Source of the DNA: Roridomyces roridus
Taxonomy: Eukaryota > Basidiomycota > Agaricomycetes > Agaricales > Mycenaceae
Direction of reading: 5' to 3'
DNA length: 64,000 nucleotides
Assembly: GCA_029378245.1 (NCBI GenBank)
Contig: JARKIF010000080.1
Span: 86,330-150,329, forward strand
Positions 25,659 to 30,663 of this stretch are shown here, one piece after another (position 1 is the stretch's first letter; each line of letters starts with the position of its first letter). The translations under genes and the position numbers were made by a program. A model generated the notes under the pieces. It searched no databases. It was not told where the DNA came from and was given only the letters and a program-made list of their open reading frames with translations.

Positions 25659-26292
25659 GGCTGAGGAATGCAAGGCGAGAAATTGGGGCTCAGGAACATC
25701 CCGAATGGTGATTGCCTCCTAATCAATGAATCAGATCCAAGGGGCGGAGACGTTTTGGCCGGAGTGAAGCGGGCATTCCTGGACATGCTTGGTGAGGGCT
25801 CGGGGAGGGAAAGGACTCTGTTCAACTTACACCCGTGGAATTATACATCCTTCTCTCTTGTCTTCAGAAAATCCGCCTTCAGTATCCCCGCATGTGACTG
25901 CTGATTTTGTCTCGCCCGATCGACTGCAAATCCATCACGTTTCAAAACTCAAAAGATGATTGAAAGATGATGTCAAGTCTATAGCCAGTTGAATAGACAT
26001 GAAACGCAATTCTACAGGCAGGAGTAGCGAGCGAAGACTTGGTTAGCCCCACAGTAATTCCCTACGCATTGCCCCATCATGCCAAGTCTCAATGTCCGTA
26101 ACTCTATCACAACTCTAATTTCCAGGCAATGCAATTTGGAATTGTGGTTACCACCCCGGATTTACGCGTTCCGGACATCAGCGGACATCACTTGATCCCT
26201 AAAATCCAGAGCCCGATGCACGTTGGTCATCGGTGCCCTAAATGTACCGAGCCGCTATCATGCGCTAATTCCGAGTCTTAAAAATTTATTTT
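25659..26292. other. Intergenic, left flank of the mariner element
   Basis: No supported gene. Holds the upstream region of the F-box-like gene. The sequence next to the transposon (26,270-26,292) is AT-rich, ending TTTATTTTTTA-like before the TA duplication. Confidence 0.5.
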
Positions 26293-26294
26293 TA

Positions 26295-26616
26295 CAGCTG
26301 TTTGCATGTATAATGAGACTGATCAAAAAATAAATATACACAACACTCGCTTACTCTCTACTTTCTTGTCGTCGTATCTTGCTCAACCCTTGCTCAAATC
26401 ACCCAATTTTAGGCGCGTTCGACACCGTTTTGACTGCGCTTCCAGATTCTGACGGTCTGACACCCCAGCTGTCAACTTTTTTTTGGCACCTTCCGAGCAT
26501 TGCTCGCTCTCGCTCTGCTCGTTTGCCGCGCCTCCACCGCGCTCCTTCGCTTGTAACTACGTGCCTTACGACCGCATCCACCCCCAGACCCCCCTCCGAC
26601 ACTCTTTGAGGCCGTT
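26295..26616 (+). repeat. Left terminal inverted repeat of the mariner-like element
   Basis: 322 bp, inverted partner at 29551-29873. Differences seen by eye: CTTGCTCAAA versus CTTGCCCAAA, the length of a T run near 26,477, TGCCTTACG versus TGCCTGACG, and CACTCTTT versus CACGCTTT. TATA-like AATAAATATACA sits near 26,328-26,340. Confidence 0.93.
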
Positions 26617-26767
26617 ATATCGCCAACACCGCCGTTTAGATACGCGATTCCGAGTCACTTTCTGTCGCTAGAGCAGGAGAACTTTTTCGTTTTCTCGTAC
26701 ATTGGTGCGTTCCCTACGCCGTGTGCATCTGCCCATCGCTGATACGCACTCCAGTATCTGCAGAACT

Positions 26768-28235
26768 ATGGCACGCGCGACACGCCAATCGGCCAAGGCC
26801 GGCGCCGCATTGATAGCCAAGATAGCCGCTGCAGAAGATTTGGTGGACGAAATGGAGACGGACGGAGAGACAACTATTGCTGTATTGGACTCGGATGAGG
26901 AGGAAGAGGACGAGGACGACGATGAGGTTGTTCTCGTTCCACAGAAACGCCAGGCAGTGTCGGACTCTGACGGAGACTCTGACGACGATGAGGAGGAGGA
27001 GGAGCTTGAACCAGATGAGCCGGAATATGATACATCGACTTTGAAAGCGAAGAAAGGCAAGACAGCGGGGAAGAAGGCCGGCAGCACGAAGGCGAGGAAG
27101 GCAAAGAGGCGCAAGTCCAATGACTCGGACTCAGACGACCCTGGTGCGTGTCTGTATGCTCCCCAGGTCCAGATCTCATCTTCATTCGCAGATTCCACGC
27201 CGCCTCCTCGCAAAATCGAGTACAAAATTGGTGTATACACCGCTGATCAAATGAAGGCCAAAAAAACTTCACGTGGGCCTCCCGACACCGACATTGTTAT
27301 TCTCCAGAGTGACCGAGCCTGGTCCGCACTCAAATCCAAGGTCATCTCGCAGATTAGTGCAGTGCTTGGCTGCGACTCCCCCACTCTCTCCGATTACAAC
27401 ATCGTCTTTACCGTCCCACAAAAATCGACTGATCCCCTGCGCTTCGACGAGAGTAAATACGAATACATGGTCGAGAAAGCCCTACTCATCAAGGCCACGC
27501 CAACCGTCAAAATTACTGTTGAGCCAAAGGTAAGCATTTGAGTTCATGGGCGTCGGAAAGTCTTCATGGCTCGCAGCCGTCTCCCTCTACGTCCGCGAAG
27601 GAAAACAGCGAGACAGCATCGGACGCAAAGAAGAAGAAAACCAAGGTAATACGCTCCCGGCTTCATTAGCCGCGCACTAACGCTGCCATGTGCAGGTTCC
27701 TAATGCACGGGACATTTTACCAGCAAACGAGGCCCTCAACGCGAAGATGGGCGAGCTGCGGGAGCGTTGGAAGTGTCCAACTCCGGGAGGTGCATGTGGT
27801 AGCGAGAATTGCTTTTACACTGCTACTGAGCCCGAGCACTTCCCTCTCTCGCACACTCATATACGAAGCTGGGGTGAGGCCATGGTAAGTCGTCAGTACA
27901 CCTACCTATGCGCACTAATAAACTTCCCTTCCGACTTTCTCACTGGTGTGCGTGGCGTTGCTCCACCGATCCCGGGCCCCGCCGCCAACGAAACCCCGAT
28001 GCTCATTCCGTATGGTCGTATTGCCGGGGAGGAGGTATCCATCAATATGTTTTGTCTTGACTATGGATTAGACGACGATATTGCAGCACGCCTGACCGAG
28101 AACAAGTTCAAGCGGACCGGCGCGCTGGCATTTGTGACGCTGGATGATCTCAAGCAGATGGGCTTTGCTCATGGTGAGATTGCGGAGTTGAAGGTTGCTG
28201 TTACAAAGTGGTCCAAGCTCCCGGGAGAAGTCTGA
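26768..28235 (+). CDS. Transposon-borne acidic protein with Cys/His cluster and SAM-like end
   Basis: I do not recognise a named family. Four exons (26768-27143, 27192-27529, 27577-27645, 27696-28235) join in phase into 440 residues. The N-terminal quarter has acidic runs (DSDEEEEDEDDDE) and a Lys/Arg cluster (KKAGSTKARKAKRRKS) that could be a nuclear signal. The middle reads like a folded domain (TDIVILQSDRAWSALKSKV, YNIVFTVPQKSTDP). Then comes a Cys/His cluster WKCPTPGGACGSENC with HFPLSHTH, spacing C-x6-C-x4-C-x8-H-x4-H-x-H, suggesting zinc binding. The last 60 residues (YGLDDDIAARLTENKF, TLDDLKQMGFAHGEIAELK) are helical and SAM-domain-like. It lies inside the transposon, driven from the left TIR, so it probably serves the element or was captured by it. 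An accessory DNA- or chromatin-binding role is inference. Confidence 0.72.
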
Positions 28236-28320
28236 ATTGTGGTTTGTATTTATCATTGTACAATTGGTGGTCGTCTGTGTCATTAGAAATACGAAATTGT
28301 GCAATTATCAGTCTGCAGCA

Positions 28321-29399
28321 TCAGAAATAGCCGGCGTGTATGAAGTACCCAATCGCGTCCTCCTCCGTGACGATATTCATTGCCTCATGCATATCATACA
28401 GCAACGCGTGCGGCTCATCTTCAGGCCCGTAGGTAAAGATGTCGTTGTTTCGACGAATCCATGCCTTGATCTGAGAAAAGGCCTCTTCAATCGGGTTGAG
28501 GTCGGGCGAATACGGAGGCAAATAGATGAGACGGACACCTGCAGAGTCCTCGGTCAGCTGTTTGAGATAAATGCACACCATTCTCACCGAAGCGGTCGCA
28601 CAACTCAAGAATTTCTTCGCCATGATGGATACGCGCGTTGTCGAGAACAAGGACACTGAGAGGGCCGGGGAAAGGAGAGCATAGCGGCAGCTAGTATGCT
28701 ATTAGTCTAGCCAAATCTGGGCCAAGTACCGAGTATCGTACGTACCACCTGATGCTCCATAAATTCGAGGAACTGATCACGGTGCATCGAGCCCTCGACG
28801 ACGGTGCTAGTAAGCATGCCACGGCAGGTGAGCAGACCGGTGGCCGTTAGTCGTCTTCCTTGAACCAGCTTGCGTCGCTTGTACGCCCGTTTACCCTTCT
28901 TAGCACGGCCTCTGCGGCGGCCCGGCGTTTTGTCGTTTTTGGAGGTTTCGTCCATGAAACCGAGGTAATCCGCCGGATACTGCGAGATCTCGCGACAGTA
29001 GTCGAGCCGCGTCAGCTCTGATCGCTCCTCCGCGATCTCCTTCAAAATCTTCGTCGACATGCCGGCGCGCTCTAGCTCGCGGTGGATAGTAGTGAAGTGA
29101 ACAGAAATGAAACGGTTGTTTGCGAGCAGGTCGAGAAGTTCATCCAGGAACCAGTCAGGATTCTCCCGCACAAGGAGGAGGAGGTGTTCAAGGTCGTCGT
29201 GGTGGAGGAGCCGTGGGCCTCCAGGATGGTTGGGGGCACGCTCCACATCTCCGGTCTCGCGCCACAAGCGGAGTACACGAAAGAAGGTCGCGCGAGAAAA
29301 GCCGACACAGGCTAGGATGTCGTTCAGGGAGAGTTGACCATGCTCCCACAGGTTTATCGCAGCGATCTTGACGTCCCGACTAATCCGTCTATTGCCCAT
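28321..29399 (-). CDS. Tc1/mariner-superfamily transposase (DD34E), apparently intact
   Basis: Cut-and-paste transposase of the IS630-Tc1-mariner superfamily. Three exons (29399-28746, 28690-28588, 28538-28321) total 975 nt and give 324 residues with no break. The N-terminus MGNRRISRDVKIAAINLWEH with LSLNDILACVGFSRATFFRV is a helix-turn-helix that should bind the inverted repeats. LGFMDETS holds the first catalytic Asp, LVLDNARIHHGEE the second, and LPPYSPDLNPIEEAFSQIKA the Glu; 34 residues separate the second Asp from the first Glu. A basic linker (RRRGRAKKGKRAYKRRK) follows the first Asp and may be the nuclear signal. The ATG at 29399 lies just inside the inner, weaker part of the right TIR. 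Length is usual for the superfamily. Confidence 0.93.
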
Positions 29400-29550
29400 A
29401 GTGCTGATGTAGACGATCTACTCGAGACGAATGAGCGAAGGGGAGATGCACACGGCGTAGGGGACACACCAAGTTCCAAGAAAACGCAAAAATCTCCTCC
29501 TCTAACGAATAGCGTTCCAAAGACGTTGGGGATGACGTGATTGGACGTAG

Positions 29551-29873
29551 AACGGCCTCAAAGCGTGTCGGAGGAGGGGTCTGGGGGTGGATGCGGTCGT
29601 CAGGCACGTAGTTACAAGCGAAGGAGCGCGGTGGAGGCGCGGCAAACGAGCAGAGCGAGAGCGAGCAATGCTCGGAAGGTGCCAAAAAAAGGTTGACAGC
29701 TGGGGTGTCAGACCGTCAGAATCTGGAAGCGCAGTCAAAACGGTGTCGAACGCGCCTAAAATTGGGTGATTTGGGCAAGGGTTGAGCAAGATACGACGAC
29801 AAGAAAGTAGAGAGTAAGCGAGTGTTGTGTATATTTATTTTTTGATCAGTCTCATTATACATGCAAACAGCTG
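29551..29873 (-). repeat. Right terminal inverted repeat of the mariner-like element
   Basis: 323 bp, inverted partner of 26295-26616. The outer end is CATGCAAACAGCTG followed by the TA duplication at 29874. The transposase leader is read out of this repeat. Confidence 0.93.
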
Positions 29874-29875
29874 TA

Positions 29876-30663
29876 AGCTCGGTCTTATCGGCCCGTTTCC
29901 CGCCAAAGTAGGGGTCCAACTTTTGATCGATGACGTCTTTGAGCCTGAGTCATTCGTGCTTATGCTTTGAACATTGATCTCCCTCTATCCGCCGACGATT
30001 GCTGTGGGAACTAATATTTTTCCAGCACCGGACCCCGTTCCGAACTTCCCGATGACAGCTCGGCGCGCCTCTTGCTTCCCAAACCCTCACCGACCATGAC
30101 ACCCCAATTCGACACTCGCTGGTCCCACTCTTTCATTCAACTATTGTCAAACTATTGTTTGCCATGGCTCTTCTGTGAGTATCACCTTCCTCTCTTCTTC
30201 TAAGTTCTCCCTGGGGCATACCATTGAAATGTTGTACTTTTCTCGTGTCATATGACTCGTGGTCCTGGGTGGATTGCCCCGACATCGTCCTACATACTTT
30301 TTGCCCTGTCACCCTCATCGTCTGGTTGCATCTTATCCACCCTGGACTCGGATTGCCATGCGATAGCAATGGCCCTTAAAAGCAGGTTTAGGTGAATCGA
30401 TTGTGGACCACCTGTGAGGCTAATGTTCGACGCAGGCGATTGGTCCGCGAAGGTTACTTACTTGATCGCAGCGGTGGATAGATTGCACCACAAGAGATCG
30501 ATATGTGGTGACTCGGTTGTACGATGCGCACATTACTTAAGACACATTGAACCTGGCGCCTACACTCATGCTCCTCCATGATCACGAACATCAAAGCCGA
30601 AGAGGCTCGGACTTTTCGGATGTTCGAAATAATGTCCTCGGCAAGTCCCCGGGCCGCTTCCAA
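29876..30663. other. Intergenic between two mobile elements
   Basis: No supported gene. A minus-strand open frame (30,454-30,668, including KLEAARGLAEDIISNIRKVR) is cut at the LTR insertion point and has no recognisable continuation beyond 43,456, so it is either a disrupted unknown gene or chance. Confidence 0.4.

Follow-up and report, generated by a model that had tools for sequence, protein, structure and literature searches.

A two-gene Tc1/mariner-like transposon in Roridomyces roridus with a likely accessory protein of predicted PB1 and SAM-like domains

Structure of the element

We analysed a 64,000-nucleotide stretch of the Roridomyces roridus genome (contig JARKIF010000080.1, positions 86,330 to 150,329; hereafter the window). 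Positions 26293-29875 of the window are occupied by a single Tc1/mariner-like transposon, which is flanked by TA dinucleotides and measures 3,579 bp without them. The element carries two open, convergent genes, a 324-aa transposase on the minus strand and a 440-aa second gene on the plus strand, whose stop codons are separated by 85 bp. A first-pass annotation had described an intact three-exon DD34E transposase facing an intact four-exon gene of 440 codons between TA duplications, and this description was borne out: the exons were confirmed, the public protein FB45DRAFT_1042644 matches the second protein with 100% identity, and the coordinates of the duplications hold. The features, including the terminal inverted repeats (TIRs), are as follows.

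26293..26294, no strand: left TA target-site duplication (sequence; a single TA stands there in two empty copies of the surrounding repeat)
26295..26593, plus: left TIR, outer ~300 bp, matching the right TIR at 99% (arm alignment)
26594..26767, plus: left TIR, diverged inner part, the 5' leader of the second gene (127/189 inner columns identical; homology to the ATG)
26768..27143, plus: second gene exon 1, ATG and acidic/basic low-complexity N-terminus (gene model)
27192..27529, plus: second gene exon 2, holding the bulk of the predicted PB1-like domain, ~130-241 (gene model and predicted structure)
27577..27645, plus: second gene exon 3, linker (gene model)
27696..28235, plus: second gene exon 4, with the C-C-C-H cluster at residues 288-309, the predicted SAM-like domain at ~373-438 and the stop (model, predicted structure, alignment)
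28321..28538, minus: transposase exon 3, catalytic E of DD34E and stop (gene model and Pfam)
28588..28690, minus: transposase exon 2, second catalytic D (gene model and Pfam)
28746..29399, minus: transposase exon 1, helix-turn-helix (HTH) region and first catalytic D (gene model and Pfam)
29400..29573, minus: right TIR, diverged inner part, the 5' leader of the transposase gene (arm alignment)
29574..29873, minus: right TIR, outer near-identical part (arm alignment)
29874..29875, no strand: right TA target-site duplication (sequence; empty repeat copies)

The transposase matched the Pfam family DDE_3 (E 1.1e-28), and a hand count on the translation placed 34 residues between the second D and the E. 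At its N-terminus, HTH_32 (3.9e-05) and HTH_23 (7.4e-04) were matched, both under the curated Pfam cut-offs. The element thus has the DD34E transposase, TA duplication and TIRs of the Tc1/mariner superfamily, but not its typical single open reading frame (ORF). The two genes fill the element, so the three-ORF layout of the ciliate Tec/TBE elements is absent, and the 2-bp TA duplication differs from the 3-bp target-site duplication of PIF/Harbinger.

Insertion sites and target

The element is nested in a dispersed repeat (flanks at window positions 26269-26294 and from 29876 onward), for which at least 41 matches to the joined flanks were found (40 of 223 candidates scored). Among the copies whose match spans the junction, two were read; both are unoccupied and continue without a break across the target, where one TA stands. 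For the sister lineage C198, too, an empty site was found: the flanks of its copy on contig C156 are continuous on C442 (984 bp at 99.6% plus 140 bp at 99.3%, with an overlap of exactly 2 bases, TA). Empty target sites, of the kind that the first-pass annotation had proposed to look for, are therefore present within the same genome. Because the empty sites lack both genes and keep one TA, the two-gene unit is mobile as a whole and creates the TA duplication. The 3.87-kb two-gene element at C156:19584-23782 is missing from the 99% identical C442:2184144-2184481 (L085), and this difference may be an insertion polymorphism, a haplotype difference or a duplicated stretch within one assembly.

The resolved ends, which do not include the outermost ends of C57, lie in the context T-TA...TA-A: 8/8 left and 4/4 right ends of the C198 group and both ends of the window, C279, C13, C224 and C212 elements. 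Both ends of six complete copies of a family of miniature inverted-repeat transposable elements (MITEs, described below) stand in the same context, two further copies being incomplete at one end. At the ends read, elements and MITEs are inserted at TTAA with the central TA alone duplicated, a target stricter than plain TA.

Terminal repeats as duplicated leaders

The inverted arms at 26292-26592 and 29576-29876 are 99% complementary over 301 nt. Aligned from the ends, 296 of the outer 300 columns are identical, followed by 127 of 189 up to both start codons, which begin at bases 474 and 475 from the element ends. The TIRs, first described as near-identical over about 322 bp, are indeed long, but they are graded: a near-identical part of ~300 bp continues into a diverged part, for a total of ~474 bp, and the homology reaches both ATGs. 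In the C279 element the ATGs lie 480 and 497 bases from the ends and the TIRs measure 413 bp; in the C198 element the corresponding values are 408 and 404 bases and ~311 bp. In C13 and C224, the second-gene ATG lies at 139 and 145, and the TIRs are 89 and 99 bp long, respectively. Since ATG distances and TIR lengths vary together, TIR length tracks leader length in these five elements. The long TIRs are the duplicated 5' leaders of both genes, which gives a simple explanation for their great length: the leader was duplicated to serve two genes. In addition, the abrupt step in identity at 300 bp suggests that the outer part of the window TIRs was recently homogenised. In the C212 element, the left TIR is split by an insertion of ~312 bp (C212:280683-280994).

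The MITE family of ~375 bp is nearly one long palindrome, and 17 places in the genome cover at least 331 of its 376 bases. Its outer ~46 bp match the window element ends at 87-95% among the matches listed, with no match reported further inward. Judged by these shared ends, the MITEs are likely non-autonomous partners of the element. As they share the outer ~46 bp only, they also suggest that the whole long TIR is not required for mobility.

Recurrence of the gene pair in the genome

A search of the 90.8-Mb genome with the transposase returned at least 25 loci, 23 of which were examined (all but C442 and C24:1537923). A recognisable second gene was found at 17 loci and is convergent with the transposase at every one; one locus gave a weak match (C1:205883, E 0.002) and five had none. 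The positive loci comprise the window, C279, C57, C13, C224, C168:569028, C212, C61 (cut by the contig end), C24:1506660 and eight C198-family copies. The element is not unique: the same kind of gene pair stands at 16 further loci. Copies lacking the second gene, to which the first-pass annotation had given weight against its proposal, do occur, as a minority.

The positive loci fall into seven transposase lineages, one of them weakly related. Transposase identity to the window in the other six declines from 73% (C279) to 38% (C224, C212). The C198 lineage, whose copies are the most recent, consists of eight near-identical copies, and in the C198/C24 group a tested stretch of 1,472 bp is uninterrupted in six of nine copies; a tenth match, C497, is a fragment. 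Among the loci without a second gene, C454 and C124 have in common a 1,363-bp transposase-only unit, with a transposase 30% identical to that of the window, while C1:2331895, C1:2318790 and C168:436117 are degenerate or partial. The unit at C454:216701-218063 (L033) and its C124 counterpart (L034) are 99.3% identical and have one recognisable end, with no paired TIR found at the other.

The second proteins of C279 and of Mycena plainly form one family with that of the window. Those of C57 and C13 join it through 19 invariant columns over seven aligned proteins, including two cysteines, a histidine and a tryptophan of the cluster. Profile comparison with 36 members gave 96% for C224, 88% for C198 and 12% for C212, against 0.2% for the transposase as a negative control. 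The C212 gene is a weak member, tied in via C198 (E 4e-4) and its position; counting C224 and C212 as family members leans partly on the layout.

Predicted fold of the second protein

The first-pass annotation had noted a C-x6-C-x4-C-x8-H-x4-H-x-H cluster in the second protein. All six residues are present in the window protein (C288, C295, C300, H309, H314 and H316), but only the three cysteines and H309 hold in wider alignments, and the C57 protein has no cysteine at the second position. Sequence searches against Pfam and PDB gave nothing or weak matches to the acidic part, and no Myb-like domain was matched in Pfam at E <= 0.01 among 36 family members.

Structures were predicted for two family members that are 17-20% identical to each other, and both models contain a PB1 beta-grasp fold. 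The SAM-like end, already suspected from the sequence, was matched in one of the two models; the match list of the other, the C13 member, was filled by its PB1 region. Both assignments are based on the VIA-align Z and on agreement among the top rows, as Foldseek returned no match at E <= 0.001 for the predicted structures. The predicted fold of the second protein therefore combines PB1 with SAM-like modules, and because such modules are predicted, the passenger is not as wholly unfamiliar as it had first appeared. PB1 assembly uses an acidic OPCA motif or a basic lysine patch. Many members have a lysine in the first strand (IEYK) of the predicted PB1 domain, and no clear acidic motif was seen by eye.

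A SAM-like domain of the same type ends ORFs at 13 other loci (L012-L015, L017-L021, L023-L026), apparently in several unrelated protein families as judged by eye. At these loci the similarity to the second protein is confined to the SAM-like end; L026 contains this stretch twice, together with a weak match to the transposase (E 5e-4). The ORFs were viewed at 10 of the 13 loci, the remaining three being near-identical copies of two of these.

Distribution and co-divergence in other species

Protein searches placed relatives of the second gene in Mycena, Roridomyces and Favolaschia only (17 in one search and 36 in another, with 7,996 candidates scored). All three genera belong to the Mycenaceae. 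The protein and genome searches do not show an ordinary single-copy host gene, the outcome that would have spoken against the element in the first-pass annotation. Transposase relatives numbered 2,187, the best 120 of which were considered; transposases at 50-61% occur in Coprinellus, Agrocybe, Pleurotus and Phanerochaete. Nine species other than Roridomyces were present in both lists with contig sizes. In four of them, the transposase and the second gene lie on contigs of identical size (M. filopes 1,041,547, M. vitilis 881,760, M. polygramma 256,487 and M. maculata 525,479), and no equal-sized pair was found in M. venus, M. epipterygia, M. albidolilacea, M. alexandri or M. galericulata. Identical contig sizes are thus indirect evidence for linkage of the two genes outside Roridomyces.

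The distance matrices of the two proteins correlate with r = 0.92 over 11 pairs, and none of 20,000 permutations was as high; these pairs, seven Roridomyces lineages and four species pairs resting on equal-sized contigs, have shared ancestry and include several proteins spliced by eye. In the comparison of the window with C279, synonymous sites have reached saturation, and non-synonymous differences per site amount to 0.19 for the transposase and 0.37 for the second gene. On these sequence comparisons, both proteins are constrained, the second about half as strongly.

Role of the second protein

Taken together, we lean towards a two-gene Tc1/mariner-like transposon in which the second gene, present beside the transposase in at least six lineages in this genome, probably codes for an accessory factor dedicated to the element and predicted to polymerise via PB1 and SAM-like domains. 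The first-pass annotation had left open whether this protein is an accessory factor or captured cargo. The former is preferred because the pairing recurs in seven lineages, one of them weak, and because contigs of equal size were found in four of nine species. Such a factor would most likely assemble on the TIRs or on the transposase. Since one leader, in two copies, precedes the two genes, they are probably expressed together. The second protein could then enter the nucleus through its basic stretches and assemble head-to-tail via the predicted PB1 and SAM domains, while the C-C-C-H module may contact the TIR or the transposase. Such an assembly might pair the element ends or concentrate the transposase there, like ORF1 of PIF/Harbinger, and short MITEs that share the outer ~46 bp could be mobilised in trans.

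More tentatively, the elements may represent a two-component Tc1/mariner branch in the Mycenaceae, in which the PB1/C-C-C-H/SAM-like protein polymerises along long promoter-bearing TIRs and pairs the ends. The partnership would be old and co-inherited while the transposases diverged below 40% identity. If true, this possible arrangement would be the first Tc1/mariner transpososome on a self-assembling scaffold. Tc1/mariner transposases are regarded as self-sufficient, and hence usable as tools in many hosts. A branch that keeps a predicted polymerising helper through deep divergence would make the benefit of the helper testable, whether this lies in pairing the ends, in delivery to the nucleus or in avoiding silencing, and the MITE family with its shared ends at 17 places offers an assay substrate.

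The strongest alternative, although we consider it rather improbable, is an anti-silencing or transcription factor: bound to the TIR promoters, it would sustain the expression of both genes in the face of fungal methylation or RNA interference, with no part in strand transfer. The TIRs lead both genes, and a factor bound there would therefore control both. The acidic N-terminus looks by eye like an activation-type stretch, and the faster divergence of the second protein relative to the transposase fits an arms race. Moreover, PB1/SAM polymerisers occur in chromatin and signalling assemblies. However, no methyltransferase, demethylase or DNA-binding Pfam domain was matched in the second protein. 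The present data do not separate an anti-silencing role from one in the transposition complex.

It is less probable still that the second protein is a negative regulator, which sequesters the transposase or blocks the ends. PB1 and SAM assemblies can sequester partners, and self-limiting elements persist long. Yet a regulator of this kind would be expected to be lost frequently in amplified families, whereas most copies in the C198/C24 group are uninterrupted over the stretch tested.

We consider it very improbable that the second gene is a captured host gene, carried as cargo and useless for transposition. The SAM-like end stands without the remainder of the protein at 13 other loci, so parts of it have host relatives. 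Against this, the same type of protein lies beside the transposase in the same orientation throughout the seven lineages, both proteins diverge in parallel and are constrained in sequence, and among the matches listed in this genome there is no full-length second gene apart from a transposase. Given the recurrence of the pair and the empty sites, captured cargo was rejected. It is barely conceivable that the element is an ordinary one-gene Tc1/mariner in which nested TIRs happened to trap an unrelated gene: two copies of a 1.36-kb relative with a transposase alone are present, but the layout recurs at 17 loci and the empty sites show both genes inserted as one unit, on which grounds chance nesting was likewise rejected.

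Comparison with known systems

The element resembles Tc1/mariner in its DDE_3 domain with DD34E, its TIRs and its TA duplication. Members of the Tc1 family are described as about 1.3 kb long with one ORF and ~30-bp TIRs, and long TIRs are known in some Tc1/mariner members, e.g., Minos (both from the part of PMC7325037 consulted). The window element differs in its conserved second gene and in a TIR that is the leader of two convergent genes. In the same part of that source, the ciliate Tec/TBE elements, relatives of Tc1/mariner, have more than one ORF beside a DD34E transposase, with Tec TIRs of ~700 bp and a TBE zinc-finger protein. They differ in their three ORFs, their ciliate hosts and the site-specific recombinase of Tec, and no PB1/SAM protein is described for them there.

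The closest functional model is PIF/Harbinger, which likewise has two separate genes. According to the portion of PMC2836001 used here, ORF1 and transposase are both required where tested, MITEs are mobilised, and the transposase is positioned by ORF1, which binds the TIRs. PIF/Harbinger has a 3-bp duplication and a Myb-like ORF1, in contrast to the TA, DD34E and PB1/C-C-C-H/SAM-like protein of the present elements. Among fungi, Marasmius oreades has the TcMar family MarorTcMar-18 / MarorTcMar-21, which is 3,972 bp long and has a 1,120-bp derivative that was seen newly inserted (PMC9674265, in part). Compared by description alone, its length is close to that of the Roridomyces two-gene elements; the covered part of PMC9674265 mentions no second gene.

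Literature searches, with subscription journals and Repbase outside their scope, returned no account of a two-gene fungal Tc1/mariner or of a PB1/SAM transposon partner, and the covered part of PMC10799480 does not describe such a two-gene element. The earlier suggestion of an undescribed system is nevertheless too strong, because second genes are known in other DNA transposons. A second gene beside a DNA transposase is familiar from PIF/Harbinger and Tec/TBE; as a new variant of that arrangement, a PB1/SAM-type partner of Tc1/mariner appears new within the literature covered.
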